NCBI RefSeq assembly: GCF_021538675.1
Contig: NZ_JAJUKH010000001.1
Location: forward strand, 434,001-498,000
Reading direction: 5' to 3'
DNA from: Paenarthrobacter sp. AR 02
GTDB taxonomy: Bacteria > Actinomycetota > Actinomycetes > Actinomycetales > Micrococcaceae
DNA length: 64,000 bases
Part shown: positions 16,177 to 32,050 of the stretch, piece by piece
How the letters are laid out: every line of letters starts with the position of its first letter
Position numbering within the stretch: position 1 is the first letter of the stretch
Program-made: the position numbers and the translations under genes
The notes under the pieces: generated by a model
Told to the model about the DNA's origin: nothing
The model's input: only the letters and a program-made list of their open reading frames with translations
The model's database searches: none

Positions 16177-17055
16177 GTGGCGACAGCTGCACAATGGATT
16201 CAAGGAGCCCGGCTCCGCACACTGCCCGCGGCCATCGCGCCCGTCCTCATCGGTTCGGCAGCGGCGTACGAGCTCCATTCGTTCCGGCTGCCGAACGCGA
16301 TCCTGGCGGCGCTCGTTGCCCTGCTGCTTCAAGTTGGCGTCAACTACGCCAATGACTACTCCGACGGCATCCGGGGCACGGACGAGGACCGCGTTGGCCC
16401 GCTGAGGCTGGTTGGTTCGGGCGCGGCCAAACCCGAGCAAGTGAAGTGGGCCGCGTTCGGCCTTTTCGGCTTGGCGATGGTGTGTGGCCTGATCCTGGTA
16501 ATCATCACGCAGTCCTGGTGGCTGATCCTGGTAGGCATCGGCTGCGTCCTGGCGGCGTGGGGCTACACCGGCGGCAAGAACCCCTACGGCTACATGGGTC
16601 TGGGCGACGTGTTCGTGTTCGTCTTCTTCGGACTGGTTGCCACCCTTGGCACCACGTACACGCAGGCCGGGCAAGTGAGCCTGGCTGCCGTGATCGGCGC
16701 GATAGGGACCGGCCTGATCGCCTGCGCCCTCCTGATGGCCAACAACGTCAGGGACATTCCCACGGATACGGTAGCGGGCAAGAGAACCCTGGCTGTTCGG
16801 CTGGGAGACAGGCACGCACGCGAGAGCTACGTCCTGATGCTGGGTGTCGCCATCCTCCTGGTGGTAGTCCTCGCACCCACCAAGCCATGGATGCTGATCG
16901 TGTTGTTGCTGATCCCCGCCTGCCTCATGCCGGCCTGGCTGATGATCAACGGCAAGAAGCGTAAGAGCCTCATCCCGGTGCTCAAGCAGACCGGCCTGAT
17001 CAACCTGGGTTACAGCCTGCTCTTCTCGTTGGGCCTGATCCTGACCCGCATCTGA
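16177..17055 (+). CDS. menA: 1,4-dihydroxy-2-naphthoate polyprenyltransferase
   Basis: MenA attaches the polyprenyl side chain to 1,4-dihydroxy-2-naphthoate, giving demethylmenaquinone in the membrane. The 292-residue UbiA-family protein has eight or nine hydrophobic segments. The first Asp-rich motif is NDYSDGIRGTDEDRVGP and the second is NNVRDIPTDTVAGKRTLAV; both bind prenyl diphosphate through Mg2+. The GTG start has GAGG 8 nt upstream. It closes the men cluster and is followed by a perfect hairpin terminator. Confidence 0.95.
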   Translation: MATAAQWIQGARLRTLPAAIAPVLIGSAAAYELHSFRLPNAILAALVALLLQVGVNYANDYSDGIRGTDEDRVGPLRLVGSGAAKPEQVKWAAFGLFGLAMVCGLILVIITQSWWLILVGIGCVLAAWGYTGGKNPYGYMGLGDVFVFVFFGLVATLGTTYTQAGQVSLAAVIGAIGTGLIACALLMANNVRDIPTDTVAGKRTLAVRLGDRHARESYVLMLGVAILLVVVLAPTKPWMLIVLLLIPACLMPAWLMINGKKRKSLIPVLKQTGLINLGYSLLFSLGLILTRI

Positions 17056-17067
17056 GTTTTCATACAA

Positions 17068-17102
17068 CTAACGCCCCTAAAACGCGGTTTTAGGGGCGTT
17101 AG
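17068..17102. terminator. Perfect 16-bp hairpin between menA and the DUF4229 gene
   Basis: Bases 17068-17083 pair perfectly with 17087-17102 across a 3-nt GCG loop. It sits 12 bp past the menA stop and 14 bp from the convergent DUF4229 stop, so it can terminate both. The plus strand continues CTGTTTAG; the minus strand continues with TTGTATG. Confidence 0.9.
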
Positions 17103-17515: not shown

Positions 17516-17956
17516 ATGCCCCGCGTTATAGGTGTCGTCGTAGTCCTGGTCATCTTCGTCTATGCCCTGGTGGATGTCATCCGCACGGACCGCCACCAGA
17601 CCCGCGGCATTTCCAAAACCGCGTGGATCATTGTGATGATCCTCCTGCCATTGCTGGGCGCGATCCTCTGGTTCATCTTCGGACGCCCCTACGGCAGGCA
17701 GGCCGCGCAGCCTGTCCGCCGCCAGCCCACTGCCCCTGACGACGACCCCGAGTTCCTTCGAAACCTGGAAGCGCGCCGCCGGAACCAAGCCGAAGATGAG
17801 CGACTGAAAAAGCTCAAGGCTGAACTGGAAGCCAGGGAGCGCAAAGCCGGAGAGAATCCCCCCGACGGCAAGAACAAGGGCGCGAAACCAGGTTTCACCG
17901 CCGGCGAGGCCAAGCACGGCGAGCCGGATCCGCATGATACCGACGAGCTGAAGTAG
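17516..17956 (+). CDS. PLDc_N (phospholipase D nuclease N-terminal) domain protein
   Basis: A 146-residue membrane protein. Two hydrophobic helices (VIGVVVVLVIFVYALVDVI and TAWIIVMILLPLLGAILWFI) flank the conserved basic loop RTDRHQTRGISK and end in FGRPYGR. This is the PLDc_N module that forms the membrane anchor of cardiolipin synthases but also occurs alone. A highly charged, probably disordered cytoplasmic tail follows. No catalytic HKD motif is present, so it is not itself a phospholipase. Small PLDc_N proteins are often neighbours of menA. Function unknown. Confidence 0.8.
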   Translation: MPRVIGVVVVLVIFVYALVDVIRTDRHQTRGISKTAWIIVMILLPLLGAILWFIFGRPYGRQAAQPVRRQPTAPDDDPEFLRNLEARRRNQAEDERLKKLKAELEARERKAGENPPDGKNKGAKPGFTAGEAKHGEPDPHDTDELK

Positions 17957-17962
17957 GCGAAC

Positions 17963-18565
17963 ATGGCCCAGCAAGCTGATGGTTCACGGCAGTCACCCTC
18001 CCCCACACCATCAGCCAGCGGGCCAAAAGCCGAACCCGCGCCTCCACCCCGCCCCGGGATCACCCTGTCCAGCGCGCCGCCGATAGCCTCAGCCACCAAA
18101 CCACCCACGTTTGCAACGGTCTCCCGTTCGCTGTGGGTGGCAAGCTTCCTGGCCGGACTTGGTGTTGTGGTGACTGGCTTCCTGGCTCGGGATTCGCATT
18201 TTGAACGCCTAAAGGGCGTCATAGGGACCATGGTTCCTGACGGTGACGCGAAAGCGGTTGACGGTGCCACCGCCGTCGTATTTCTTGGGAGCCTCGCCAT
18301 GCTGGCGCTGGTCATGGCCATGGAGGCAGTACTCTTGGCCGTCCTCTTCAAACGCCGGCTGTGGGCGCGATGGGCACTGGCTCCGGTGGTCCTCCTCCAC
18401 GCCATCGTCACAGTCATCACCCGGGACTTCGTGGTGGCACCAGGCTCTGAAGGTGTCCTGGCAACACTGCTGCTGGCTGCGCAGTTTGTCTTGGCGGCGG
18501 CGGGCCTGATCCTGCTGTTCCTTCCGTCCACCACATCCTGGCTGCTCAGCGAACGGCGGCAGTAG
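17963..18565 (+). CDS. Hypothetical four-helix membrane protein
   Basis: A 200-residue protein of unknown function. The first ~50 residues are Pro/Ser/Ala-rich and probably disordered. Four hydrophobic segments follow at roughly 55-75, 100-125, 135-155 and 168-190. It starts 6 bp after the PLDc_N gene and is likely co-transcribed. Its 3' end overlaps the convergent dynamin-like gene by 20 bp, with no space for a terminator between them. No recognisable family motif was seen. Confidence 0.7.
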   Translation: MAQQADGSRQSPSPTPSASGPKAEPAPPPRPGITLSSAPPIASATKPPTFATVSRSLWVASFLAGLGVVVTGFLARDSHFERLKGVIGTMVPDGDAKAVDGATAVVFLGSLAMLALVMAMEAVLLAVLFKRRLWARWALAPVVLLHAIVTVITRDFVVAPGSEGVLATLLLAAQFVLAAAGLILLFLPSTTSWLLSERRQ

Positions 18566-20021
18566 GAGCCATCATCCCCTCACAGCTGCGCATCACGACG
18601 CGGCAAGCCTCCACCGCGCGCGGTTCGGTCAAGGGGTTCTCCGCAGCCAGCCGCCAGCGCTGAAGGCTGTCCCTTGCAGTTTCGCTGATAAGGCGGTCAT
18701 CCGCGTCCCGGGCAAGGCCAAGCCGCAGCGCAGGGCTGCTGCCTCGCCCGCCCACCAGCCGTTCCGCTTCGGCCGACGCTGAGGGTCCCAGGCCCACCCC
18801 GCCCGTCCTCAAGTCCGCCAGGAGCTTCAACTCCCGGAACTCGTGGGCACCGGCCTGAAGCCTCTCCAACGCTGCTTCCACTGGTGCGGCGCGTTCCTTC
18901 GGCGCCCCTCTTACCAAGGCTTCCACACCCACGACGGCGGCACGCGCCTTCAGTGCCTCGGCCCGCGTTTGGAAGAGGTGCTCGACGGTGTCGAGCAGTT
19001 GGCCAAGGCCGCTGCGGCGTGCCAATTCATGGGCAAGGTCGGTGGGGTTGTTGGTCCCGCCACGGATGAGGGCCACACCGAGCCGGATGCCGAACAAGCC
19101 GAACCTGCTCACCAGGGAGGACTTCGTTTCCGGGTCGAGTTGCCCGGGGCCGTCGCTGCGGATGAAACGGTCCACGGACAGCATGAGCCTTTCCCTTGAA
19201 TTCCTGTCCATGCTTGCCAACAATTGCAGGGCCTCGACATCTGATTGGCGCATGGTCCTGGAGCTTTGTGCCAGAAGGCCTGCCACTGGGACCACTCCCA
19301 AAGCCAGGGGCCTGAGGTTTTGGTCCTTGCTGTACCTCTCGGCGATCACGGCCGCGGAGATCAACGAATCGATCCTCCCGGCACCGATTTCATCGGCCCG
19401 GGAGAGCACGGCCAAGGCGTTGACCGTTCCCGACTGTCCGGCCGCAGTGTCTTTGAATGACTCAAGGAACCTCACATCGGAGGCGTGCAGGTGCCGCATG
19501 AGGTAGATGACAGCGTCAGCGGCCGCCGGCGAGTCCTCGGGCAGCAGAAACGCCGTGGACCGGGCGGACACCTCCTGGGACAGGGAGGCAATCCCGGGCG
19601 TATCTATCAGGGTGAGATCACGCAGGCTGGCTGCCGGCCAGTCCACCACCAGCCGTTCCACTTCCTCGGGCCGGACCTCACCCAGGGTAAAGACCAGCCG
19701 ACCGTCCACCCGTGTGACCGGGAGTCCTTTGGGCTCACCTGTGAGGGGGTAAAGGGTGATCCGTGGGGTGTGTCCGAAGCGGTACCACGTGACAATGCGG
19801 GTGCACTCCCCTGCATCGGTGGGCGCTATTTCTTCGCCGATGATCGCGTTGAGGAGGGTTGATTTGCCGGCTTTGACCATCCCGGCCACGGCAATACGAA
19901 GTGGCCCGGCAAGTCTGGCATCCAGCTCATCCAGCACGGCGAGCGCATCGGCGTCGTCGTGGAAAGCCCCACGGGCCAGCCCCAGCAGCTCCGTCGCTCC
20001 AGCAATACCGGACGGAATCAT
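18546..20021 (-). CDS. Dynamin-like GTPase, IniC-like (second of a tandem pair)
   Basis: A 491-residue dynamin-superfamily GTPase. The P-loop GMVKAGKST is at residues 47-55, switch I carries TDAGECTRIVTWYRFG and the G3 motif is DTPGIASLSQEVSARS. The G4 motif is degenerate (LSRADEIG instead of N/TKxD). The rest is helical with no obvious membrane paddle, the reduced architecture of mycobacterial IniC. Bacterial dynamin-like proteins tubulate, fuse or repair membranes and often act as pairs. Its ATG overlaps the stop of the upstream GTPase (ATGA), implying translational coupling and a 1:1 complex. It is the last gene of the module. Confidence 0.83.
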   Translation of the reverse strand: MIPSGIAGATELLGLARGAFHDDADALAVLDELDARLAGPLRIAVAGMVKAGKSTLLNAIIGEEIAPTDAGECTRIVTWYRFGHTPRITLYPLTGEPKGLPVTRVDGRLVFTLGEVRPEEVERLVVDWPAASLRDLTLIDTPGIASLSQEVSARSTAFLLPEDSPAAADAVIYLMRHLHASDVRFLESFKDTAAGQSGTVNALAVLSRADEIGAGRIDSLISAAVIAERYSKDQNLRPLALGVVPVAGLLAQSSRTMRQSDVEALQLLASMDRNSRERLMLSVDRFIRSDGPGQLDPETKSSLVSRFGLFGIRLGVALIRGGTNNPTDLAHELARRSGLGQLLDTVEHLFQTRAEALKARAAVVGVEALVRGAPKERAAPVEAALERLQAGAHEFRELKLLADLRTGGVGLGPSASAEAERLVGGRGSSPALRLGLARDADDRLISETARDSLQRWRLAAENPLTEPRAVEACRVVMRSCEGMMAPTAAVR

Positions 20022-21883
20022 CCCGCGGGGACCGTGGACGGTGTCGGCTGGGGATCCGGACTTCTGTCCAGCAACTGCCGGGCGCCTGAGCTGAGGGCAT
20101 CGACCACCCTGAGTTGGTTCCGGATCTCCTTGATCCGCATGTCACGTTCCACGGCGTAGGTGGCCGCAGCTTTTTGGGCGGCGGCAACAGATTCAGTGAG
20201 GGAACGGTGATGCTCTTCAGCGATGTCAGTGAAGTGGTCGCGGGTGGCCCGCTGGACCATCCGCAGCCTGTCCTTCAGCTGCTTTCCTACCTGGAAGACG
20301 ACGTCGTCCACCTGCTTGCGGACAAGCATCTTGGCTTCGGCCTGGCGCCGTTTCAGCCGGGCTTCCTGTTCTTCGCGGTAGGCCTTCCGGCCCAGCATGA
20401 GGCCCGCACCCACGGATAGCGGATTGATCAGCGCGAGGCCGAACAGCCCTGTCAGCAACCCGAACATCAGGACTCCCCCATAGGACCCCCGCATCCCGAT
20501 CAGGATCTTCTGGACCGCCCCCATGCGGCCGTCTTCCATCTGTTGGATGTCCGCCACCGGGTCCAGCACACCTCCCGTATCTGAAACCTGCAACGTCGGC
20601 AGCGCCACCTCGTCTTCGGAGAAGTGCACGGCCACCTGGCGAGCCAGCCATTGTGCCCTTTCGTTGGTCCACACGAAGGTGTCCGAAACTGCGGCGGCCG
20701 TGCTTTGTTCCAACCACGAGGTGAACTGCTCCCATGCCGGCCCGGGGTCCCCTTGGTCGATGGCGGTTTCGGCTTCGCGTTGGATCCGGCGGAGTCTGTC
20801 CTTCAGGTCGTACTCCATGTCCGCGATGAGGTCTCCAATCCCGTCGTTGAGGGTGATCTGCCACCGGGCCGATCGTTTACGGAGGGCGTCGGCGTCCTCC
20901 TTCGCCGCCTTCAGACCGGCAATCATGTGCGGTGTGCCTTCGGGATTCTCCAGGGCACCCAGCTCCGATTGCAGCGCAAGCCTCAGGTGTTCGGTGACGG
21001 AAAGGACGTCGTGTGCTACGGATCGGCGTTGCAGCCTGGCAGCCTCGCCCACAATGTTGGTGCGAAGGTGCGAGATCAGCGCCGGGAACCCTGATTCGTC
21101 GTTGAGTTCTGTGTCCTGGAGCCTGGCCGCCTGCAACCGCAGTTCGGAGGAGACAGGGAACAACGGGATGCCGGGTGCGACAGCTTCCAGGTGGCCTTTG
21201 TCCAGGTCAGCTATTTGCCGCCAGCTGGGATAGAGGTCCGTTTTGGAGAGTACGCAGAGCACGTTGGGGCTGATCCGCAGTGCTTGATGGAGGAACCGGA
21301 TTTCCGGTTCCGTGTATTCCTGCGAAGCATCAGAGACGAACACCATCGCATGGGCTGATGGCAGCGCCGTCAGGGTGGTGAGCGTATGGGAGGAGCCCAG
21401 CCCGCCGACACCCGGAGAGTCAACCATGGTGAGGCCCCCGGCGAGCAGTTTGCGGGGAAGCGATACTTCGGCCGCCACGATGTTCCTGGCGTTTCCCGGA
21501 TTTCCCTTCTCGGACACATAGTCTGCAAGCTCATCGAGCCCGATCGATTGCCGCTCCACGGGCGCCTCAGGTCCGCCGTCGGATTCCGTGACGCTGCCGC
21601 CATGGCGGGGAACAAGGACGACGGCCGACGCCGGGTCCCCTTGCCGTACGACGGTTGGGACCGTCGTGGCAATGTCGTCGTCTACGGGACAGACCGGGGC
21701 ATTGACCATGGCGTTGATCAGCTGGCTTTTGCCTTGCTTGAATTCCCCAACAACAATCACACGGACACTGGGGTCCCGGAGCCGCTCCAGGGTGTTTTCC
21801 AGGCGCCGCCTGAGGTCGTTCCGTTCCCCCACGACGGCAATGCCTTGCTCCACCAGTGTGGTCATACGTACTGTTTCCGCCAC
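20018..21883 (-). CDS. Dynamin-like GTPase, IniA-like (first of a tandem pair)
   Basis: A 621-residue dynamin-superfamily GTPase. The P-loop is GEFKQGKSQ (46-54), with Gln in place of the usual Ser/Thr. Switch I has DDIATTVPTVV, G3 is DSPGVGGLGSSH and G4 is LSKTDLYPSW. A long helical stalk follows, then a hydrophobic hairpin around residues 465-500 (GGVLMFGLLTGLFGLALINP), the probable membrane-inserting paddle, then charged coiled coil (REEQEARLKRRQAEAKML). This matches IniA, the membrane-remodelling GTPase of the mycobacterial isoniazid-inducible operon. The GTG start at 21883 has AAAGGA 7 nt upstream. It lies 128 bp after the IniB-like gene, with a strong hairpin between. Confidence 0.87.
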   Translation of the reverse strand: MAETVRMTTLVEQGIAVVGERNDLRRRLENTLERLRDPSVRVIVVGEFKQGKSQLINAMVNAPVCPVDDDIATTVPTVVRQGDPASAVVLVPRHGGSVTESDGGPEAPVERQSIGLDELADYVSEKGNPGNARNIVAAEVSLPRKLLAGGLTMVDSPGVGGLGSSHTLTTLTALPSAHAMVFVSDASQEYTEPEIRFLHQALRISPNVLCVLSKTDLYPSWRQIADLDKGHLEAVAPGIPLFPVSSELRLQAARLQDTELNDESGFPALISHLRTNIVGEAARLQRRSVAHDVLSVTEHLRLALQSELGALENPEGTPHMIAGLKAAKEDADALRKRSARWQITLNDGIGDLIADMEYDLKDRLRRIQREAETAIDQGDPGPAWEQFTSWLEQSTAAAVSDTFVWTNERAQWLARQVAVHFSEDEVALPTLQVSDTGGVLDPVADIQQMEDGRMGAVQKILIGMRGSYGGVLMFGLLTGLFGLALINPLSVGAGLMLGRKAYREEQEARLKRRQAEAKMLVRKQVDDVVFQVGKQLKDRLRMVQRATRDHFTDIAEEHHRSLTESVAAAQKAAATYAVERDMRIKEIRNQLRVVDALSSGARQLLDRSPDPQPTPSTVPAG

Positions 21884-21927
21884 AAATTCGTCCTTTGCTC
21901 TGCCACCCTTGGACGGGAGGCCACGAC

Positions 21928-21960
21928 GTGCCCGGCAGGTGTGTACGACCTGCCGGGCAC
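21928..21960. terminator. 13-bp perfect hairpin between the IniB-like and IniA-like genes
   Basis: Bases 21928-21940 pair perfectly with 21948-21960 around a 7-nt loop. There is no U-tract on the minus strand. It could be a partial terminator or an mRNA-stabilising 3' structure giving more IniB-like protein than GTPase from one transcript. Confidence 0.7.
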
Positions 21961-22011
21961 TGCCTGGGGACTTCGCGGTGCAGCATTTCGCTGCGCCGTT
22001 TGGTGCACTGG

Positions 22012-23361
22012 TTACTGGTCGATGTCCACGTCGTTCTTGGCGACGACGATCGAGTCGTCGATGTTGTTGTACTCGACATCGAGGTCGTTGTCGGCGATCA
22101 CTGTGTTGTCCTCGACGTTGGTGTAGTCCACGTCCACGTCGCCCACTGTGGTGGAGTTGTCCTCCGTGTAGGTCAACTCGTTGTCCTGCGCCACCACCGA
22201 GTCATTGATCACCTGGACGTCTTTCAGGTCCACATCAACGTCGGTGGAGTTGAAGGAGTCCGTCGCGTTGAAGGAGTTGTTCGAGTTGTCCGTGTTCGTG
22301 GTTGTGTTGTTCGTCGTCGTGGACGAGTTGTCCGTGTTGAAGGAGTCCGCGATGTCAACATCGATGTCCGCATCAACATCCACGGAGTTGTCCTGCGAAT
22401 TGTCGTTGAACGAGTCCGAGACGTTGTTCGTGGTGTTGTGGACCGAGTTGTCGGTCTCCTCGTTGAAGGAGTCCTTGATATCGACGTCGACATCCGTGTC
22501 GGTGTTGTAGGAATCCTTCGTTACCGAGTGGTCGTCGTTGAAAGAGTCCCTGACATCGATGTCCGTGTTGCCCACCTCAACATCGCCGTCGCCCGACTCC
22601 GTGATGTTGACCGAGTTGTCCGTGGAGTGGTCATCGGTGTGGGTCGTCGTCGTGGTGGTTGTCGTGTTCCCGGAATCCCTCACGTCTCCGCCGGCCGCGA
22701 TGGCCCCATCCCCCGAAGCAGTCACGGCATCCTGGTTGAAGAACTGCGTGACGTCGCCATCGGCCCAGATGTTCTGGTTGACCGACTGATCGGTGATGGT
22801 GTCGCGGTCGTCGATGGTGGTGGTGTACGAGTAGTTGTTCACCACATGGATCAGCTGCTGGACGGCGTGGGCGTGATCATCATAGTCGCCGCCACCGGCA
22901 CCGCCATGCCCGCCGCCGTCGTGCTCATGGTCGTCGCCACCATCATGGCCGTCCCAACCACCGCCGGCACCGCCATGCCCACCGCCGTCGTGCTCGTGGT
23001 CGTCGCCACCATCATGGCCGCCCCAACCGCCACCGGCACCGCCATGCCCACCGCCGTCGTGCTCATGGTCGCCGCCACCGGAATTGTGGGGGCGTCCGCC
23101 GCCTTGGCCACCGCCTTCCCAGCCGCCGGTGGAAGCGTGGTTGCCGCCAGTGTTGTATTCGCGGTCGAACGAGGAGCGGGCGTTGATGGGTGCGTAGTCC
23201 AGGACCACGGGCCGTGCGGCGTCGACGTCTGCCGAGGAGACGTGCCGCAGGCCGGCCGCGGAAAGGGCCGCTTCCGGGTTACGTACGAACTCTTCGGCTG
23301 CGTCAGGATCGTTGAACAGGCTCATCAGGAACTGCACGAGCTGTTGTGCGAGTGTAGGCAT
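22012..23361 (-). CDS. IniB-like protein with Gly/His/Asp repeats and a long Asp/Asn/Ser/Thr repeat domain
   Basis: A 449-residue protein of very biased composition. Residues 1-50 (QFLMSLFNDPDAAEEFVRN, PEAALSAAGL) resemble the N-terminal domain of mycobacterial IniB. Residues ~65-145 are Gly/His/Asp-rich with 23-residue repeats containing DDHEHDGGGHGGAGGG. From about 170 to the end, motifs such as DSFN, DNSV, VDVDI and NNT recur, with almost no Lys, Arg or bulky hydrophobics. This suggests a beta-solenoid or fibre. No signal peptide or membrane helix is seen. It is first in a presumed operon with the two dynamin-like GTPases. Biochemical function unknown. Confidence 0.75.
   Translation of the reverse strand: MPTLAQQLVQFLMSLFNDPDAAEEFVRNPEAALSAAGLRHVSSADVDAARPVVLDYAPINARSSFDREYNTGGNHASTGGWEGGGQGGGRPHNSGGGDHEHDGGGHGGAGGGWGGHDGGDDHEHDGGGHGGAGGGWDGHDGGDDHEHDGGGHGGAGGGDYDDHAHAVQQLIHVVNNYSYTTTIDDRDTITDQSVNQNIWADGDVTQFFNQDAVTASGDGAIAAGGDVRDSGNTTTTTTTTHTDDHSTDNSVNITESGDGDVEVGNTDIDVRDSFNDDHSVTKDSYNTDTDVDVDIKDSFNEETDNSVHNTTNNVSDSFNDNSQDNSVDVDADIDVDIADSFNTDNSSTTTNNTTTNTDNSNNSFNATDSFNSTDVDVDLKDVQVINDSVVAQDNELTYTEDNSTTVGDVDVDYTNVEDNTVIADNDLDVEYNNIDDSIVVAKNDVDIDQ
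22903..23085. repeat. 69-bp in-frame tandem repeats in the IniB-like gene
   Basis: The segment GTGCTC(A/G)TGGTC recurs at 22921, 22990 and 23059, exactly 69 bp apart. It encodes 23-residue Gly/His/Asp repeats on the minus strand. The copies are nearly identical, so copy number may vary between strains. Confidence 0.85.
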
Positions 23362-23399
23362 TGGAGTGCTCCCTCAAATTCTGTGGTGGGTGGTAAATG

Positions 23400-23419
23400 G
23401 CCCGGCGCCTTTGCCGGGC
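23400..23419. other. Hairpin in the iniB-like leader
   Basis: GCCCGGC (23400-23406) pairs with GCCGGGC (23413-23419) across a 6-nt loop. It lies in the 175-bp gap between the LuxR-type gene and the IniB-like gene. It may end the upstream transcript or fold in the iniB-like 5' leader. Confidence 0.5.
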
Positions 23420-23468
23420 TCCCACTCAACGTATGGCCCGGGCCAGGGGCGGGGCATCGGGGGCGGTC

Positions 23469-23519
23469 CCCCTACCGGCCACCCCGGCGTTAGGGGATCC
23501 GGTGCATTCCCGTTAGGGG
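23469..23519. promoter_or_regulatory. Candidate LuxR-type operator cluster upstream of the iniB-like gene
   Basis: Two direct copies of CGTTAGGGG at 23488-23496 and 23511-23519, 23 bp apart, plus an inverted CCCCTA at 23469-23474. They lie ~110-160 bp upstream of the iniB-like start and next to the gene for the LuxR-type regulator, a natural autoregulatory or operon-activating position. This is inference from position and repetition only. Confidence 0.4.
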
Positions 23520-23536
23520 GTGGAGGGGGTGACCGA

Positions 23537-25588
23537 CTACGGAGGTGGGTACCCCTCCCCCAAGGCCAGGCGGAGCCGGACCAGCAGTTCGGAACGGTTT
23601 TCGGCCCCCAGCCGGCGGCGCATCCGGGCTACATGATGCTCTGCGGTGCGGGGCGAGATGTAGATGGCTTCGCCGATTTCGCGGTAGGTTTTGCCCTCCA
23701 GAAGCAGTCGGCCCACTTCCCGTTCCCTGACGCTCAGGCCTGAAGAGTCAGGTATGCCTGGGGCCTCTCCCGCATCCGGCAGCGGCGCGCCTGGGTCCTG
23801 ACGCCCGGCAGCTTCGGCCCGCTCGGAAGACCCCGCAGTGGTGCCCGTGATGGTGGTTGCCCCCTGCGGATGGATATCCCTGGCACACGCCAGCAGCCGT
23901 ACCATGTCGCGCCGTTCATCGGCGTGCGCGGCGGCGTGGCCGGCCAACCGCGCACCTTCCCATGGCATGCCTACCGCAGCCAGCCCACGGGCCGCTGTTT
24001 CGACGTCGGACGCTTCGAACCTGCTGGCGAGTACGGAAACCCAGGCCTTTCCGCCAGCGGCTAGGACAGAGGCCAGATGGCTGTGTTCGGACGCGCGCAC
24101 CAATGCCGCAGCATGCGGAGCAAGTTCAGCGGGGCTTTCGCCCAGCAATGCGGCCTGCACCCCCGCCCAGTGCAGCGGAACCGACCACAATGGCGGATTT
24201 CCCAAGCGGCCCAACAACTCCCACGCACTGTCCATGGACGGCGAGATTCGTCGCGTCTCCCGTAGCCTCGCTGCGGCTATGGCCAGTTCTCCCCAGGGCA
24301 GCAGGCTGAAGAGGTCCACGGATACGTGCATCATGGCCTCACGGGCCCTGTCCCAGGCGAGCACCAGTTCGTGCACCTCGCTGCCGCGCCGCGCCAAGGC
24401 CACCTCCAGTGCCGCCAACAGGAAGGTATCCCGTGGAGCCAGGGGCCAGTGGTTGGCCTTGACGGCCTCATTGATGGCCAAGCGTGCTTCTTCGGGGTTG
24501 TCCTGTTGCATTGAGCACCAAGCCTGAAGCAGGAACAGCCTGGGCCTGCAAGCATCTCCGCCCTGGCCGGCGGCGAGGGCAGCACTGAGCACCGTGTCCG
24601 CCACCGCGGGTTCCCCACTGTGGATCGCACAGAGAGCCGCCAATGCTGCAGGGGTCTCCGGCAAGGGAATCGATGCGCCGGCCGCGTTCATCATGTCTGA
24701 CGCCCGGATGAGTTCCGGCAACGCCCGCTGTGGTTCCCGCCCCAGGGTGTGCCTGAGCCCCTGCTGGGACAATGTCAGCGCCACCGCCAAGAGCGTAGGC
24801 GAGCCCGCCAACGGTGTGGCGCCGAGGATTTGCTCGGCGCCGCTTGCATCACCGGCGCCGATCATTGCCACTGCTGCCAGCGGCGCGGAATCGTCGATCC
24901 TGTCAGGGCCAACCCACCTGTAAGTGTCCGCGCTACGGGCCAGCATGCCGCGGTGCGCCCACACGGCAGCGGCAACGTCCGCACCCAGGCGAAGCCCAGG
25001 GGCATCGGGCATGGCCAAAAGCCTGTCCACGATTCTTCCCGCAGCGTCCAAGTCGCCGATAGCTGCAGCGGCTTGGGCCCGCCGCGCGGCGGTGGGAAGC
25101 TCCGGAGCTCCGGCAAGGAGTGCTTCGGCGAAGAGATCGGCGGCCAACTGTGGATCAGCATCCAGCACCAGGTCCGCCCAGCGTTCCAGCTCCTCCGCCA
25201 CACGGGGGTCCTGCAATCCGCTCCGTGCGAGCTCACGGGCAACATCACCCAGGCCCGTCTCTTCCTGCAGGATCTTCCCTACCAGCTCCCGCTGCAGTGC
25301 ACGGAGTTGCGGCTTGGGTGCATTGTTCAACAGCGCATATTGGACGGTCCCCACCACGGTTCCATCCGGAGAAAGCAGCCCGGCTTCCTTACCGGCTGCC
25401 ACTGCGTCTTCAAGCCCGTCCCGGGTCTCCAGGTCATCCGGCAGCGGCCCAGGCAGGGTGAAGCCTACTGACAACGCAAGGAGCAACTCCCGGAGCAATG
25501 CATTGTGTCCGGCAAGGACCACGTCGGGCCGATCAGGAGTTGCGTCCTTGCTGGTGGTGGGTTGGGAAGCATGGTCTGGCCCCGTCAT
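23537..25588 (-). CDS. LuxR-type helix-turn-helix regulator with helical-repeat N-terminus
   Basis: A 683-residue transcriptional regulator. The C-terminal 67 residues (GLSVREREVGRLLLEGKTYR, SPRTAEHHVARMRRRLGAEN) are a GerE/LuxR DNA-binding domain. The preceding ~600 residues are Ala/Leu-rich helical repeats resembling TPRs. No Walker A motif and no receiver domain were found, so it differs from classical MalT-type (LAL) regulators and from response regulators. It begins 2 bp after the Hsp70-like gene and is presumably co-transcribed with it. It sits upstream of the iniB-like/dynamin genes, which it likely controls. The inducing signal may come through the Hsp70-like partner. Confidence 0.82.
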   Translation of the reverse strand: MTGPDHASQPTTSKDATPDRPDVVLAGHNALLRELLLALSVGFTLPGPLPDDLETRDGLEDAVAAGKEAGLLSPDGTVVGTVQYALLNNAPKPQLRALQRELVGKILQEETGLGDVARELARSGLQDPRVAEELERWADLVLDADPQLAADLFAEALLAGAPELPTAARRAQAAAAIGDLDAAGRIVDRLLAMPDAPGLRLGADVAAAVWAHRGMLARSADTYRWVGPDRIDDSAPLAAVAMIGAGDASGAEQILGATPLAGSPTLLAVALTLSQQGLRHTLGREPQRALPELIRASDMMNAAGASIPLPETPAALAALCAIHSGEPAVADTVLSAALAAGQGGDACRPRLFLLQAWCSMQQDNPEEARLAINEAVKANHWPLAPRDTFLLAALEVALARRGSEVHELVLAWDRAREAMMHVSVDLFSLLPWGELAIAAARLRETRRISPSMDSAWELLGRLGNPPLWSVPLHWAGVQAALLGESPAELAPHAAALVRASEHSHLASVLAAGGKAWVSVLASRFEASDVETAARGLAAVGMPWEGARLAGHAAAHADERRDMVRLLACARDIHPQGATTITGTTAGSSERAEAAGRQDPGAPLPDAGEAPGIPDSSGLSVREREVGRLLLEGKTYREIGEAIYISPRTAEHHVARMRRRLGAENRSELLVRLRLALGEGYPPP

Positions 25589-25590
25589 GC

Positions 25591-27717
25591 CTAAACCACC
25601 GAGGTCGACGCGGTATCCAGGCTCGGGCCGTTATCCGTGGTGGCAGGCGGCGGGACAGGTGGCGGGTCGGTGACCGGGGCGGGATCCAGCGTCGGGGCCG
25701 GATCACCCAGCGGCGCGGTTGGTTCGGGAGACGGCGGTGCAGGGTCAGGTGCGGGTGGCGGAGTCACAGGGTCCGTGGCCGGTGGCGGGGTGGTCCCCGG
25801 GTCGGTGGCCGGTGGCGGGGTGCCAGGACCGGTTGGCGGCGCAGGTGTCCCGGGGTCCGTTGCCGGTGGCGGGGTGCCAGGACCAGTGGCCGGTGGCGGG
25901 GTCCCGGGGTCCGTTGCGGGCGGAGGTGTAGGGCCACTCGCCGCGCCACCGGGGTCCGTGGGTGTGGAGGGCGTTCCCGTTCCAGGCGTCGTTCCCGTCC
26001 CCGGCGTCGTGCCCGTTCCCGTCCCCGGCGTCGTGCCCGTGCCCGAACCCGGCGTCGTGCCCGTTCCCGTCCCCGGCGTCGTGCCAGTGGTCCCACCAGC
26101 GGCTGCTCCAGCCTGACTCTGAGCCCCAGCCGAGGTACCGGAGCCGGTTCCAGCGGGTCCGTTCGCTACCGAACCACGTCCTGTCCCGGTCGCCCTCTGC
26201 ACTGGGCTTCTTCCGGCTCCTGCTCCGGCTCCGGCCGGGCCGGCACCTGTTCGTGCACTGGCTTCAAGTCCCGTCGCCGGCGCCCCGGTCAACGGAGCGG
26301 CCGCGGCTGGGCCGCCACCGGACGCACCGTCACGTGTTCCGGAATCCTGGGCACCGCCGTCGCGCATTACGTCAGCGGCTTGAGTCCCGAACATTGATGC
26401 GAGCAGTCCGTTGCCGTCCGGGCTCTGGGCCGCAGTGGCGGTGGCGATGGCCAGGGCTGTCGCGGCGGTAGCAGCGGCCGCAGCCATCCGGACGCGGGGC
26501 CGGGGCGCGTGCCTGCCGGGACGTCCAGGGGCCGCCTTCACGACGCCCGCAACGGGGACACGGGCGACGACGCGCGGCCGAGTGGCCTCCGGTTCCGTAG
26601 GTGTCGCAGCCGGTGCATCGGCCGCCACAGCGTCTGCCACCTTGCTGAGACCTGCAAGCGCGGCGCCGCGGCAGATGGACGACTTCGGATCGGCGTCAAC
26701 AGCTATCGGGCGGCCCAGTTCAACGGAAATCAACTCGGCCACGAGCGGAATACGCGAGGACCCTCCGATCAGCAGCACAGCGCTCAGGTCCTGAGGCTCA
26801 AGACGGTTGCTCCGCAGGCTGCGCTCCAGGGCGTCCACGGTCTCGCGGAGGGGCTGCTCGACCATTGCTTCGAACTCGGAACGGACCAGCCTAACCGACT
26901 GCTGCGTCCAGGGAAGCGCCACCGCAACGCTCGCTTCGCTGTCCATGGAGAGGGCTTCCTTGGCTTCGCGGCATTCCCGCCTCAGCCGCGAAAGGGCGGC
27001 CAAGGTCTCCGGCGATGCGGGGTCCAAACCCTCTCCGGCGTTGCCCAAGTGGCCCATCACCTGACGCAAGACAGCGGCGTCGAAATCGGCGCCGCCAAGG
27101 GTTTCTATGCCATCCGGCCGCCCGAGGAGCTCGAAGTTCCCCGCACCCACCTTGCGCAGGATGGCCGTGTCGAAAGTGCCACCACCGAGGTCGTACACGG
27201 CGATGACGCTTCCGTCCTCCACCCTCGTCTGGGAGGCGTAGTGCAGTGCGGCCGCTTCAGGCTCGCTGAGCAACGTCACCGCTTCGAGGCCCGCGACGTT
27301 CAACGCGGCCTGCACCACTGACGTGCGGTGCGCACCCCACGCCGCCGGGTACGTCATGACGATCGACGACGGCGAACTTCCCTCCCGCTCTTCGGCGCGG
27401 TCCACCACCCACCGCGCCATGGAGGCGTAGACGTCCTCGGGTGCCAACCAGTTGTCCCCTACGGAAAGGGGGACGGAATCCCCGATCCTGCGTTTGAACT
27501 CCCGGACCATCCGCTGGGGGTCGTCCAGCCCCCGCCGCTCGGCGGGTTCTCCCACCAAAACCCGGCCGTCGTCGGCGTAGTAAAGCACGGATGGCACGGC
27601 GCTGCCGTGCAATCCCAAGGGAAGGATTTCCGGTGGTGATAGCGGCGCCTGGTGGGGCCTGGCCAGTGCTGCTGCGGTAAAACTTGTCCCGACGTCAATG
27701 GCGAGAACATAGCTCAT
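25591..27717 (-). CDS. Membrane-anchored Hsp70-like protein with Pro/Thr/Gly-rich C-terminus
   Basis: A 708-residue protein. Residues 1-360 form an Hsp70/actin-fold ATPase with the phosphate-1 loop AIDVGTSFTAAAL, phosphate-2 motif YDLGGGTFDTAIL (~175-187) and the adenosine motif LIGGSSRIPLV (~316-326). A normal DnaK substrate-binding domain is absent. Instead there is a basic linker, one hydrophobic segment at ~410-430 (Ala-rich, preceded by RPRVR) and a ~270-residue tail of TTPGTGTG and PPPATDPGTP repeats likely to extend outside the membrane. The start ATG has GAGGT 6 nt upstream. It is the first gene of the pair with the LuxR-type regulator and is plausibly an envelope sensor. It is not a general chaperone. 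Confidence 0.8.
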   Translation of the reverse strand: MSYVLAIDVGTSFTAAALARPHQAPLSPPEILPLGLHGSAVPSVLYYADDGRVLVGEPAERRGLDDPQRMVREFKRRIGDSVPLSVGDNWLAPEDVYASMARWVVDRAEEREGSSPSSIVMTYPAAWGAHRTSVVQAALNVAGLEAVTLLSEPEAAALHYASQTRVEDGSVIAVYDLGGGTFDTAILRKVGAGNFELLGRPDGIETLGGADFDAAVLRQVMGHLGNAGEGLDPASPETLAALSRLRRECREAKEALSMDSEASVAVALPWTQQSVRLVRSEFEAMVEQPLRETVDALERSLRSNRLEPQDLSAVLLIGGSSRIPLVAELISVELGRPIAVDADPKSSICRGAALAGLSKVADAVAADAPAATPTEPEATRPRVVARVPVAGVVKAAPGRPGRHAPRPRVRMAAAAATAATALAIATATAAQSPDGNGLLASMFGTQAADVMRDGGAQDSGTRDGASGGGPAAAAPLTGAPATGLEASARTGAGPAGAGAGAGRSPVQRATGTGRGSVANGPAGTGSGTSAGAQSQAGAAAGGTTGTTPGTGTGTTPGSGTGTTPGTGTGTTPGTGTTPGTGTPSTPTDPGGAASGPTPPPATDPGTPPPATGPGTPPPATDPGTPAPPTGPGTPPPATDPGTTPPPATDPVTPPPAPDPAPPSPEPTAPLGDPAPTLDPAPVTDPPPVPPPATTDNGPSLDTASTSVV
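25760..26090. repeat. GC-rich microrepeats encoding PPATDPGTP and GTTPGTG tracts
   Basis: Within the Hsp70-like gene, imperfect units of ~15-33 bp recur. They encode PPPAT(D/G)PGTP (about six copies) and TTPGTGTG (about five copies). Such tracts change length easily. Confidence 0.75.
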
Positions 27718-27781
27718 AGCTACCTCGAAAGTTCACATGGCACCGCGCTGCGGTCTTCATCACAAGCGGGTCCTGAACAAG

Positions 27782-27795
27782 TTAGCACCTGCTAA
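27782..27795. promoter_or_regulatory. Perfect palindrome TTAGCA-CC-TGCTAA upstream of the Hsp70-like gene
   Basis: The 14-bp palindrome lies 65 bp upstream of the Hsp70-like start codon. Its arms equal the outer arms of the HrcA/CIRCE element (TTAGCACTC-N9-GAGTGCTAA), but the spacing is far shorter, so HrcA itself is doubtful. It could be an operator for the module. Confidence 0.4.
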
Positions 27796-27891: not shown

Positions 27892-28959
27892 CTAAAGTCC
27901 CGAGTAGGAATGCAGGCCCTGGAAAACAGTGTTGACGAGCGTGAAGTTGATAATGACACACGCGTAACCCACGATCGACAACCACGCAGCGCGGGTTCCG
28001 GTCCAGCCACGGGTGGCACGTGCGTGCAAGTAGCCTGCGTAGACAACCCAGATCACGAACGTCCAGACTTCCTTCGGGTCCCAGCCCCAGAACCTGCCCC
28101 AGGCCTTCTCGGCCCAGATGGCACCGAACATCAAGGTGAAGGTCCAGCCGATGAAGGCAATGGCGTTGATGCGGTAGGAAAGGTTCTCAAGGCTCAGCGC
28201 GTTGGGCACCACCCGCATGAACGAGAGGTTGTCCTTGCGGCCGGCCGCGAGGTTCTTCTGCCTGTAGGACTGAAGCAACTGCAGCACGGACATGGCGAAA
28301 GTCAGCGTGAACAGTGCCGAGGACAGGACCGCGATGGAGACGTGGATGATCAGCCAGTAGCTCTGCAGGGCCGGAACCAGGTGGCCCACCGGGGTCCAGA
28401 ATGAAACGGAAGCGGCAACCAGCATGATGATGGCCAGGCCAAGGACGAAGGTGCCCAGGAACCGCAGGTCGCGGCGGATCAAAGTAACAAGGAAGACGGC
28501 GACAGCCACGAAAGCACCCGTGGTGAGGAACTCATACATGTTGCCCCACGGCACCCGGCCGGCACCCAGTGCGCGGGTGATAACGCCAGCGGCGTGGATC
28601 AGCACACCCAGGACCGTCAGCGCCACGGCAATGCGCGCGGGTACGCGCCGTTCAGCGGCGTACTTCATGTCGCCAGCCGCGGTTCCGCCCTCAAAGGTGA
28701 GGCTCGACGTCGGCCGCTCGGCGCGGCCTGCCGGCCCACCGGCGTCGGCACCGCCCAGGGCTGCACCTACGCGACCAGCTGCAACCGTCACCTTTTCGCC
28801 AGCCGAGCTGGCCGCCGCCTTGAGGTCCACGGCCTGGAACGTCTTGCTGCTTTTCGCCAGGTCCCAAGCGAAGGCAATGAACGCCACGGTGTACGTGCCG
28901 GCGGCCAACAGCATGAACAGTTCGCTGTACTGGCCCAGGGTTTCGTTGATGGCTGGCAT
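27892..28959 (-). CDS. ccsB: Cytochrome c biogenesis protein CcsB/ResC
   Basis: The 355-residue membrane component of system II cytochrome c maturation. It forms the haem channel/ligase with ResB. The tryptophan-rich haem-binding WWD motif is WGWDPKEVWTFVIW, with conserved histidines in flanking helices (LIIHVSIA, LHARATRGW). About eight membrane segments are visible, with a soluble loop after the first. The start is ATG 28959, sharing one base with the ResB stop (TAATG); the open frame to 29031 lies inside resB. It is the last gene of a five-gene operon. Confidence 0.93.
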   Translation of the reverse strand: MPAINETLGQYSELFMLLAAGTYTVAFIAFAWDLAKSSKTFQAVDLKAAASSAGEKVTVAAGRVGAALGGADAGGPAGRAERPTSSLTFEGGTAAGDMKYAAERRVPARIAVALTVLGVLIHAAGVITRALGAGRVPWGNMYEFLTTGAFVAVAVFLVTLIRRDLRFLGTFVLGLAIIMLVAASVSFWTPVGHLVPALQSYWLIIHVSIAVLSSALFTLTFAMSVLQLLQSYRQKNLAAGRKDNLSFMRVVPNALSLENLSYRINAIAFIGWTFTLMFGAIWAEKAWGRFWGWDPKEVWTFVIWVVYAGYLHARATRGWTGTRAAWLSIVGYACVIINFTLVNTVFQGLHSYSGL

Positions 28960-30680
28960 TACTGGTCCTTCGAGGTTGAGGAAGAGACTGCTGTTGTGGG
29001 GGGTGCCTGAGGCGTTTCCGGGAGGTTCCATTCCCGGGCAAAGAGTTCACGGAGGGCCGCGGCCTCGCCGGCCAACCTGTGGTCTTCACCGCGGGCAAGG
29101 AGACCGTATTCCACCATGGTGCGGCCGTCGGCGTGGGTTCCGGTGCGTACCCAGACGCGGCGTCGGTTGACGTACAGGGACGTCATGAGCCCTGCGACTG
29201 CCAGGAGGCCGAAGATCAGGGCATACAACTGGCCGGGGTTGTGGTGGATATCCACGCCGATGTACTTCTTGACGCCGTCGAACGTGATGCTGCCCTTGCC
29301 TTCGGGCAGGTTGACGGTTGCTCCGGGAGTCAGGGTGATGCCGCCTGCCGCGAGGTTGCGGCTGTTCAACGGCTTGAGCTTCTCGACATCCAGTTCAAAC
29401 ACGTTCTGGGGCACGCCCTTGTCCAGGCCAAGGTCACCGTAGAACGAGTTGAGGCTCAGCTGCGGGTTGACCAGTTCGGGGGCCCCGCTGAAGGAGATCC
29501 CGTCACTGGTGACCAACGCCGTGGGGAGGAAGAAGCCCACGAATCCGAGCTGTTCAGGCTTGGCATCCGGCACCTTGATGACCACGGAGGAGTAGTAGTT
29601 GTCGCCTTGGACCTTGGCGATGACCGGGCCTTGGAAGGACACGTTGCCCTCGCCGTCGCGGACGGTCACCATGGGTGCGTAGCCGTTTCCCGTGAGGTAC
29701 AGGCTGGTTCCGCCCAGGGAAACGGGATCGTTGACCTTCAGGGTTTCCTTCTTGGCCGGCGAATCGGGGGTTTCCTTGGTGGTGACTTCGGCGGTGTAGT
29801 CGATGGGCTGGCCGGCCTTGCCCGGTGATTCGCGGTCGAACTTTGCATTGAACTTGTCCAGCTGCATGGAGTAAGGCTGCAGGGAACTGCTCTGGAAGTT
29901 CGTGCCGGGCGTGAATTGGTCGTAGCCCACCAGGGTGTTCACGAACGTATCGCCCTCAACCAGGATGCGCTGGCCGCTGTAGCCGAAGAGGCCGCCAATT
30001 GCCACGGACACCAACACCCCGATCAGGGACGTGTGGAACACCAGGTTGCCCACCTCCTTCAGGAAGCCGCGCTCGGCACCCAAGGACGGAAGGTCGCCGT
30101 CGGCGTTCCTGACCTCGACGCGGTAGCCGCGCTTCTTGAGCAGTCCAGCGGCATCGTTGATGGCCTTCGACGCCGGGATCCCGGCGTCGGCGGGCAATGC
30201 GAGGGTGCCGTACTCCGGCAGGCGGGAAAGGCGCTTGGGAGTGCGCGGGGGCTGCGACTTCATGGCCTTGTAGTGGGCGATCGCGCGCGGAGTGACACAG
30301 CCGATCAGCGAGATGAACAGCAGGATGTAGATCGCAGAGAACCAGGCAGACGAGTACACGTCGTAAAGCTGCAACGCATCCAGGAACTGGCCGTAGGACG
30401 GGTTGTCCTTGATGTATTGGGTGACCACGGCAGGGTTGGCCGGCCGTTGCGGGAACAAGGACCCGGGCACGGCCCCCACTGCGAGCATGAGCAACAGGAA
30501 AAGTGCCGTCCGCATGCTGGTGAGCTGCGTCCACGCCCAACGCAGCATGCCCTTGAAGCCAAGCGCGGGAAGCGCGGCCTCGGACTTTGCCTGCTGGAGT
30601 TTGCCTTCGCCTGCTGCGCCTTCTGCGGTGGCGCTTTCAGCGGAGGGCGACTTCTTCTTGGCTTTCACGGACTCACTCAT
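28959..30680 (-). CDS. resB: Cytochrome c biogenesis protein ResB
   Basis: A 573-residue ResB/Ccs1 protein, partner of CcsB in delivering haem to apocytochrome c outside the membrane. After a Lys/Ala-rich cytoplasmic tail come membrane helices (TALFLLLMLAVGAVPGSLFP, IYILLFISLIGCVTPRAIAH and a third near VFHTSLIGVLVSVAIGG). A large extracytoplasmic domain (FVNTLVGYDQFTPGTNF to LTPGATVNLPEG) and a final helix (LYALIFGLLAVAGLMTSLYV) follow. ATG 30680 overlaps the CcdA stop by one base. An upstream open frame to 31034 is a shadow inside ccdA. Confidence 0.93.
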   Translation of the reverse strand: MSESVKAKKKSPSAESATAEGAAGEGKLQQAKSEAALPALGFKGMLRWAWTQLTSMRTALFLLLMLAVGAVPGSLFPQRPANPAVVTQYIKDNPSYGQFLDALQLYDVYSSAWFSAIYILLFISLIGCVTPRAIAHYKAMKSQPPRTPKRLSRLPEYGTLALPADAGIPASKAINDAAGLLKKRGYRVEVRNADGDLPSLGAERGFLKEVGNLVFHTSLIGVLVSVAIGGLFGYSGQRILVEGDTFVNTLVGYDQFTPGTNFQSSSLQPYSMQLDKFNAKFDRESPGKAGQPIDYTAEVTTKETPDSPAKKETLKVNDPVSLGGTSLYLTGNGYAPMVTVRDGEGNVSFQGPVIAKVQGDNYYSSVVIKVPDAKPEQLGFVGFFLPTALVTSDGISFSGAPELVNPQLSLNSFYGDLGLDKGVPQNVFELDVEKLKPLNSRNLAAGGITLTPGATVNLPEGKGSITFDGVKKYIGVDIHHNPGQLYALIFGLLAVAGLMTSLYVNRRRVWVRTGTHADGRTMVEYGLLARGEDHRLAGEAAALRELFAREWNLPETPQAPPTTAVSSSTSKDQ

Positions 30681-31435
30681 CAGATCGGCAACTTCACGTC
30701 GTTTTGGAACCAGTACTGCAACTCGGTCACCCAGGTCCCCCACACTCCGGTGGCCATCAGGATGCCGAGCAAAATCAGGATGCCTCCGCCGATCCGCTGG
30801 ATAGCCAGGCGGTGCTTGCGGAAGAAGGACATGACGCCCATACCGCGGCGAACGGCCAAAGCGATCAGGAGGAACGGAATGCCCAGGCCAAGGCTGTAGA
30901 TGAAGGCAAGGAGTGCACCCTTGGCCGCCGACGAACCGCCGGACAGGCTCAGCAACTGTACCGCGGAGTAGGTCGGGCCGATGCAGGGTGCCCAGCCAAG
31001 GCCGAACGTGAGCCCCAGCAGAGGTGCACCCCACAGGCCCGCCGGCGGTTTGGCGTGGATTTTCGCGTCACGCTGGAGCCAGCCGAAACCGCCCATGAAC
31101 ACCACGCCCATGACAATCACCAGGAGGCCAAGCACCTGGGTGATCCAGGCGTTCTGCGGACCGGTCAGGAGGGTACCCAACTGGCCGAAGGCACCGCCGA
31201 GCAGGACGAAAATCACCGAGAAGCCAAGGACGAACAGGCCGATTCCGGCCAGCATGCGGCCACGCCGCTGCTTTTGCAGGTCGACGCCGGTCAGTCCAGT
31301 GACGTAGCCAAGGTACCCGGGCACCAGGGGCAGCACGCATGGCGAGAGGAAGGAGACCAGCCCGGCGAGCAATGCCACGGGCACAGCCAGCAGCAGGGAT
31401 CCGTTGAGGATGGTCTCGGCGAAGGGACTGTTCAC
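30680..31435 (-). CDS. ccdA: Cytochrome c biogenesis protein CcdA
   Basis: A 251-residue, six-helix thiol-disulfide transporter of the DsbD transmembrane family. It passes electrons from cytoplasmic thioredoxin to the extracytoplasmic ResA-type protein. The two redox cysteines lie in LSPCVLPLVPGYLGYVTG (first helix) and LGWAPCIGPTYSAV (fourth helix). It starts 4 bp after the resA-like gene. Its substrate is the CAPC thioredoxin encoded immediately upstream. Confidence 0.94.
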   Translation of the reverse strand: MNSPFAETILNGSLLLAVPVALLAGLVSFLSPCVLPLVPGYLGYVTGLTGVDLQKQRRGRMLAGIGLFVLGFSVIFVLLGGAFGQLGTLLTGPQNAWITQVLGLLVIVMGVVFMGGFGWLQRDAKIHAKPPAGLWGAPLLGLTFGLGWAPCIGPTYSAVQLLSLSGGSSAAKGALLAFIYSLGLGIPFLLIALAVRRGMGVMSFFRKHRLAIQRIGGGILILLGILMATGVWGTWVTELQYWFQNDVKLPI

Positions 31436-31439
31436 GGTT

Positions 31440-32045: not shown

Positions 32046-32050
32046 GGTCC

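Follow-up and report, generated by a model that had tools for sequence, protein, structure and literature searches.

A five-gene relative of the mycobacterial iniR-iniBAC locus in Paenarthrobacter sp. AR 02, with an Hsp70-type ATPase as a candidate envelope-stress switch

RESULTS AND DISCUSSION

An iniR-iniBAC homologue whose regulator lacks its ATPase. A 64,000-nucleotide stretch of the 4.42-Mb genome of Paenarthrobacter sp. AR 02 (here called the window) carries five minus-strand genes that, judged by their sequences, make up a homologue of iniR-iniBAC, the cell-envelope-stress locus of mycobacteria. The regulator of this locus has lost the N-terminal ATPase of the IniR family, and an Hsp70-like gene with an intact ATPase site lies directly upstream of it. 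Our leading explanation, with a probability of about 0.45, is that the Hsp70-type ATPase, for which a membrane anchor is predicted, replaces the lost ATP switch of IniR and gates the activation of iniB, iniA, and iniC by IniR via a predicted CCCCTAA operator.

The Hsp70-like gene (25591..27717, minus strand) encodes a 708-amino-acid protein consisting of the ATPase domain alone, a predicted membrane helix, and a tail rich in Pro, Thr, and Gly. Its stop codon is separated by 2 bases from the start of the gene for an IniR-family LuxR-type regulator without the N-terminal P-loop ATPase (23537..25588, minus strand; 683 amino acids). The iniB-like gene (22012..23361, minus strand; 449 amino acids), iniA (20018..21883, minus strand; 621 amino acids, GTG start), and iniC (18546..20021, minus strand; 491 amino acids) follow, the last two being dynamin-like GTPase genes that overlap at an ATGA. 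The first-pass annotation of this DNA had described the same five genes, their order, and the ATGA overlap, and our coordinates and family matches agree with it. Its link to mycobacterial iniBAC was also right. The product of iniA matched Mycobacterium smegmatis IniA (PDB 6j72) with 467.5 bits over residues 14 to 599, almost its entire length, and that of iniB matched the N-terminal domain model NF038175 (IniB_NTERM) with 68.3 bits against a cutoff of 40. Pfam scores were 163.8 bits for HSP70 and 43.2 for GerE. Matches to Dynamin_N (PF00350) of 67.4 bits for IniA and 50.0 bits for IniC place a dynamin GTPase domain in both, and the second dynamin gene stands after iniA, as in an iniR-iniBAC locus. 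The AlphaFold model of the iniB product (mean predicted local distance difference test score, 42.7) was confident only near residues 4 to 56, the helical N-terminal domain; according to this model, the remainder is probably disordered. Two other Dynamin_N matches occur in the same genome (G000), at C2:38118-38528 and C35:19218-19322.

The label "uncharacterised" given to the system by the first-pass annotation is not supported, as the regulator is an IniR-family protein, and proteins of this family (iniR is Rv0339c in M. tuberculosis) are the activators of iniBAC in both M. marinum and M. tuberculosis, according to passages of PMC5760070. The window shares with the mycobacterial locus an IniR-type regulator, the IniB N-terminal domain, both GTPases, and CCCCTAA boxes (present in 9/9 loci of genus code g34, which we take as Mycobacterium because its IniR frames exceed the NF038181 cutoff). 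It differs in that its regulator lacks the N-terminal ATPase, its Hsp70-like gene has an intact active site, its five genes are co-directional, and its IniB tail is acidic and rich in Asn, Ser, and Asp.

The regulator. The regulator matched the IniR model NF038181 with 361.3 bits at model positions 279 to 824, leaving the first 278 positions unaligned, and it missed the curated cutoff of 750 bits. Thus, by its profile match, it is an IniR-family relative that lost the NTPase, neither an IniR equivalog nor the new type of LuxR regulator that had been claimed; the accompanying observation that it has no receiver or NTPase domain was correct. The N-terminal P-loop ATPase domain of IniR/STAND regulators is absent from it, in contrast to MalT and other STAND-type LuxR regulators. 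What it retains is a LuxR/GerE helix-turn-helix (residues 617 to 670; 23579..23740, minus strand) and, in a predicted structural model, a helical repeat domain resembling MalT domain III (residues 229 to 577; 23858..24904, minus strand). The MalT match was obtained with VIA-align among Foldseek candidates, and with Foldseek alone the top 50 matches of the model were generic repeat proteins. Its closest named relatives are Paenarthrobacter and Arthrobacter proteins with at most 78% identity. In two other genomes, a frame after IniR matches the ATPase part of IniR alone (L084, G161:C37:3034-4029, model positions 3 to 325; G1077:C15:13287-14297, model positions 5 to 334); by these matches, each is a detached ATPase domain adjoining the regulator.

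The Hsp70-like protein. Residues 1 to 367 (26617..27717, minus strand) form an Hsp70 nucleotide-binding domain in which all of the catalytic positions examined are retained (D8, K75, E152, D176, GGGT, and GGSSR). This domain is shared with DnaK/Hsp70 chaperones, whereas the substrate-binding domain is missing; the best Pfam HSP70 stretch stops at position 372 of 599, and the listed PDB matches stop at the ATPase domain. In its place are a predicted membrane helix (residues 411 to 429; 26431..26487, minus strand), preceded by a basic stretch, and a predicted outer tail of 279 residues, 82% of which are P, T, S, G, or A (25594..26430, minus strand). The helix is weak (mean Kyte-Doolittle value, 1.53) and was missed under a stricter threshold. 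The earlier description of the protein as membrane anchored depends on this one helix; several relatives show a clearer one. Among 114 Hsp70-like proteins of related loci, 95 have a membrane helix, and the median tail is 180.5 residues. The 19 proteins lacking a helix belong to family codes f53 (7), f58 (10), f19 (1), and f61 (1), and the domain match is partial in 4 of them. In L086 (1936-4398, minus strand), the Hsp70-like protein carries a YVTN beta-propeller behind the membrane helix, a build that, from its sequence, would be expected of a receptor; a second Hsp70-like gene adjoins it.

A quick tree with 71 rows placed the ini-type Hsp70-like proteins in a single clade apart from DnaK; six Hsp70-like proteins not encoded beside iniR also fell within this clade. 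The Paenarthrobacter genome has two dnaK genes, and the Hsp70-like gene of the module gave its sole Hsp70 match stopping at the ATPase domain. Upstream of this gene, a GTGCTAAC block (27781..27788, minus strand) shows conservation in 8 of 9 close relatives aligned with the window, and the region probably represents the gene's own promoter. In the open-license iniBAC literature, the sole mention of such a gene that we found is a remark, in the available part of PMC5760070, on a dnaK-like gene beside iniR in M. smegmatis. When the literature was searched for iniBAC in further genera of actinobacteria, none of the listed titles concerned the operon.

Conservation of the five-gene set. The module is patchy even inside its own genus: of 37 genomes, 22 had a strong IniR match (E value of <1e-100) and 15 did not. 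The 22 genomes taken from elsewhere in the order gave no match at this level. With E values up to 1e-30, IniR matches were found in 38/394 genomes at the class level, 19/396 at the order level, and 8/296 at the phylum level, as well as in 5/5 and 60/200 genomes of two other orders and 80/151 of one family. From part of the listed matches, 120 stretches spread over genus codes were taken and, together with the window, gave 121 IniR loci spanning 14 family codes and 45 genus codes. An Hsp70-like gene was present in 114 of these, IniB in 114, IniA in 111, IniC in 107, and all five in 101. The seven loci without an Hsp70-like gene were L084 and L102 (both with IniR at a contig end), L090, L104, L137, L139, and L140. 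A second set, anchored on IniA and consisting of the best 80 of 571 named loci, contained IniC in 80, IniR in 75, IniB in 72, an Hsp70-like gene in 67, and all five in 65. Of the 13 loci lacking the Hsp70-like gene in this set, 12 have less than 4.1 kb of contig before IniA, and the other (L206) has 9.1 kb. Complete loci include those of Pseudonocardia, Lentzea, a Sporichthya metagenome-assembled genome, Cellulomonas, Agromyces, Microbacterium, and Arthrobacter. Because the five-gene block recurs across actinobacterial families, its existence goes beyond chance. The proposal of a conserved unit, for which the first-pass annotation had named co-occurrence in other genomes as the test beforehand, is borne out by both sets (an Hsp70-like gene in 114/121 loci and all five families in 65/80 loci, respectively).

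Gene order varies among these loci, from all co-directional to iniA-iniC convergent, iniBAC divergent, and Hsp70 beyond iniB or iniC; despite these changes, the set mostly keeps together. The Hsp70-like gene lies upstream of iniR in the same direction in 105 of 114 cases, and in 90 of these it ends between -20 and +30 bases from the nearest possible in-frame iniR start, a measure that is biased toward 0; 30 have a 4-base overlap. One genome (G033) has two modules (L064 and L065), each with an Hsp70-like gene.

Several loci depart from the common layout. Mycobacterium-like loci can have a second Hsp70-like gene, located after iniR (L093 and L094, in which the first stands before iniR) or after iniC (L087 and L095). 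L137 and L139 are second IniR copies with an iniB-type gene and with no Hsp70-like gene, iniA, or iniC within the stretch. In Pseudarthrobacter sp. Fe7 (L243), the Hsp70-like gene and iniR are each split into two frames. A single open frame covering both proteins in Arthrobacter sp. RIT-PI-e (L229, 3922-8061, plus strand) was rejected as a fusion; a frame slip within the repeats of the tail is the probable cause, because an arginine-rich, out-of-frame-like stretch precedes the iniR start.

Two ATPases. We scored P-loops by motif pattern in frames matching the ATPase profile and compared them with the Hsp70 site in 114 loci, leaving out the seven without an Hsp70-like gene. The IniR P-loop was kept in 72 and absent from 42, and the Hsp70 site was intact in 31 and degenerate in 83. 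A P-loop was combined with a degenerate Hsp70 site in 64 loci and with an intact one in 8; loci without a P-loop had an intact site in 23 cases and a degenerate one in 19. A tree built from the C-terminal part of IniR requires no fewer than 13 changes for the P-loop and 6 for the Hsp70 site. The Hsp70-like gene was present in 42 of the 44 loci without a P-loop, the exceptions being L102 (contig end) and L104. Eight of the 44 retain a domain resembling the ATPase in which the motif pattern was not matched (L086, L104, L111, L112, L113, L169, L182, and L183); in all but L104 and L113, Arg replaces the P-loop Lys (by alignment in L086, whose sole pattern match was discounted as chance). Short of a strict trade-off, the pattern that holds is that the IniR ATPase is dispensable and that loci without it carry the Hsp70-like gene (42/44). 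Of the two ATPases, the window retains the Hsp70 site alone. The two modules of G033, one of each ATPase kind, fit this picture.

A candidate operator before iniB. Two CCCCTAA boxes, candidate IniR operators, lie upstream of iniB at 23513..23519 and, 23 bases away, at 23490..23496, followed by an inverted half-box, GTAGGGG (23469..23475), a conserved CCCCGATG element (23455..23462), and TACGTT (23428..23433), a putative -10-like site (TANNNT); all are on the minus strand. Aligned iniB promoters of nine near relatives and the window share repeated CCCCTAAC boxes, the CCCCGATG element, and the -10-like site, and all but one have the inverted GTAGGGG. CCCCTAA or its complement occurred in 153 of 226 iniB-upstream regions, compared with 1.8% of random stretches from the same loci and a mean of 7.9 in dinucleotide-preserving shuffles. 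By locus, the box was found in 141/185, and by genus code, it was found in 30/39 (shuffled mean, 3.7; maximum, 7); it was missing from 9/39 genus codes and from L064, one of the two G033 modules. In g34, the box precedes both iniB-type genes in all nine loci.

No box was found before iniA (0/188) or iniC (0/181). The corresponding value for the start of the IniR profile match (0/165) is a within-gene control and not a promoter test, because in loci whose IniR retains the ATPase, the match begins within the coding region. The box preceded 60 of 148 Hsp70-like genes. This proportion was high in family codes where Hsp70 and iniB are divergent (f53, 7/7; f59, 5/5; f58, 12/13; f22, 20/28) and was 4/63 in f1 loci and L208 to L263, which are mostly of the co-directional type. 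A double box (1 to 30 bases apart) occurs once in the 4.42-Mb genome, at iniB. By itself this proves little, because the reversed control pattern is equally rare (also once), and it is conservation that carries weight. These patterns suggest that IniR likely binds the CCCCTAA boxes. Passages of PMC5760070 report an IniR chromatin immunoprecipitation (ChIP) peak directly before iniBAC in M. tuberculosis, with no motif given in those passages. The literature matches listed for the box with iniB were, by title, off target, the hits falling within names of drugs. Elsewhere in the window, a CCCCTAA/TTAGGGG inverted repeat with 9 bases between its arms (17074-17096), shortly past a UbiA-family gene (16177-17055, plus strand), is probably a terminator hairpin rather than an operator.

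Proposed mechanism. Our model builds on features read from the DNA itself, namely, the gene identities and order, the tight Hsp70-iniR spacing, the loss of the IniR P-loop domain, the retained Hsp70 ATPase residues and helix-turn-helix, and the conserved boxes; the MalT-like domain comes from a predicted model. In this model, the Pro/Thr-rich tail would sense the state of the wall, and wall damage would alter its load or partners. The Hsp70 ATPase would then shift state, and its nucleotide state would set whether IniR is held or else freed or armed. Once free, IniR would bind the boxes, perhaps while trehalose or another sugar occupies its MalT-like domain, and would switch on iniB-iniA-iniC; IniA with IniC may then cut or patch the damaged membrane. 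M. smegmatis IniA is described in part of PMC6715688 as cutting membranes in vitro; window IniA, known here by its sequence, is homologous to it over nearly the entire length. Trehalose and ATP have both been proposed as iniBAC signals, the latter via the IniR ATPase (PMC5760070 and PMC6104191, in part). In M. bovis BCG, iniBAC induction tracked the ATP level, and the IniR ATPase was put forward by the authors as a possible sensor (PMC6104191, in part). The window lineage lacks this domain of IniR.

Several observations weigh against the proposed switch. Neither ATPase site is intact in 19 loci and both are intact in 8, and loci with both intact are frequent in the IniA-anchored named set. Among 12 independent pairs differing in the P-loop, an average of 2.0 differed in the one-or-other direction, none differed in the opposite direction, and 10 showed no difference (P = 0.5); the reverse test, with 5 pairs, gave 2.3 in the one-or-other direction (P = 0.5). 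A see-saw rule, by which the IniR ATPase would be intact only with a degenerate Hsp70 site, was dropped given this tree result and the many both-intact loci. The Hsp70-like gene stands on the far side, away from iniR, in nine loci, beyond iniC in two more (L089 and L091), and apart from iniR in Pseudonocardia-type loci of the IniA-anchored set; in the L090 stretch, none was found nearby. The 19 proteins without a helix and the weak helix of the window protein count on the same side. No box was found in 44/185 loci, and in eight loci with convergent iniA and iniC, where iniA is not behind iniB, iniA has no box, so the operator cannot account for iniA-iniC control there. Finally, IniR is functional in two species, M. 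marinum and M. tuberculosis, for which passages of PMC5760070 do not show an Hsp70-like gene.

Some of these layouts would suit a different role, in which the Hsp70-like protein serves the effectors, placing or disassembling IniB or polymers of IniA and IniC, and IniR is controlled by a ligand of its MalT-like domain alone. The gene adjoins iniB rather than iniR in f31 and Pseudonocardia-type loci and follows iniC in L086, L111, L112, and L183, and trehalose induces mycobacterial iniBAC (PMC5760070, in part). We regard this role as unlikely, though worth serious attention, given that 105/114 genes precede iniR in the same orientation (90 of them at a distance of a few bases when the nearest possible start is taken) and that the protein has no substrate-binding domain. 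A role as a tether between membrane and wall, or as a scaffold, with the ATPase activity being irrelevant, appears improbable; by our criterion, 83 of the 114 scored domains have a degenerate active site, and the tail is long and rich in Pro and Thr, yet the window and near relatives without the IniR ATPase retain the catalytic residues that were examined.

Two further explanations were considered. Binding of the iniB boxes by another factor, with the block kept for general envelope upkeep and no dedicated switch, gains something from the fact that IniR-box binding is predicted only and from the report that another regulator, HpoR, binds upstream of iniBAC, at its promoter, in M. bovis BCG (PMC13413693, in part). 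The HpoR motif given there (CAGAC-N7-TGTCTG) is unlike the box, and the ChIP peak of M. tuberculosis IniR lies directly before iniBAC, so that we hold this explanation to be very improbable. Least credible is a Leo-type antiphage dynamin system, to which PADLOC gave weak matches (IniA, 48.5 bits to LeoBC and 43.6 to LeoA; IniC, 41.3 to LeoA); the match to mycobacterial IniA is far stronger (467.5 bits), and an IniR-family regulator adjoins.

Neighboring genes. Immediately upstream of the module are cytochrome c biogenesis genes (Cytochrom_C_asm and ResB) and a thioredoxin-like gene (27892-32171). Beyond its iniC end, a frame with no Pfam match (17963-18565, plus strand) is convergent with iniC and shares 20 bases with the end of that gene, and a gene for a small membrane protein of the PLDc_N type lies at 17516-17956 (plus strand).

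Implications. The iniBAC promoter serves as a reporter of wall-targeting drugs. In a lineage that naturally lacks the IniR ATPase and keeps the effectors, an Hsp70-type partner, and a candidate operator, the way in which iniBAC senses damage can be tested directly, using a harmless soil bacterium. To our knowledge, it would be a novel role for this fold if an Hsp70 ATPase relayed a signal at the membrane to a transcription factor. Tentatively, and with considerable doubt, the idea may be extended across actinobacteria, with a transmembrane Hsp70-type ATPase as the missing iniBAC transducer, its tail reading the wall and IniR being held or freed; the mycobacterial system would then be a reduced form and the IniR ATPase a dispensable second switch. 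If this is true, the textbook mycobacterial iniBAC would have been studied in species apparently without the Hsp70-like transducer.

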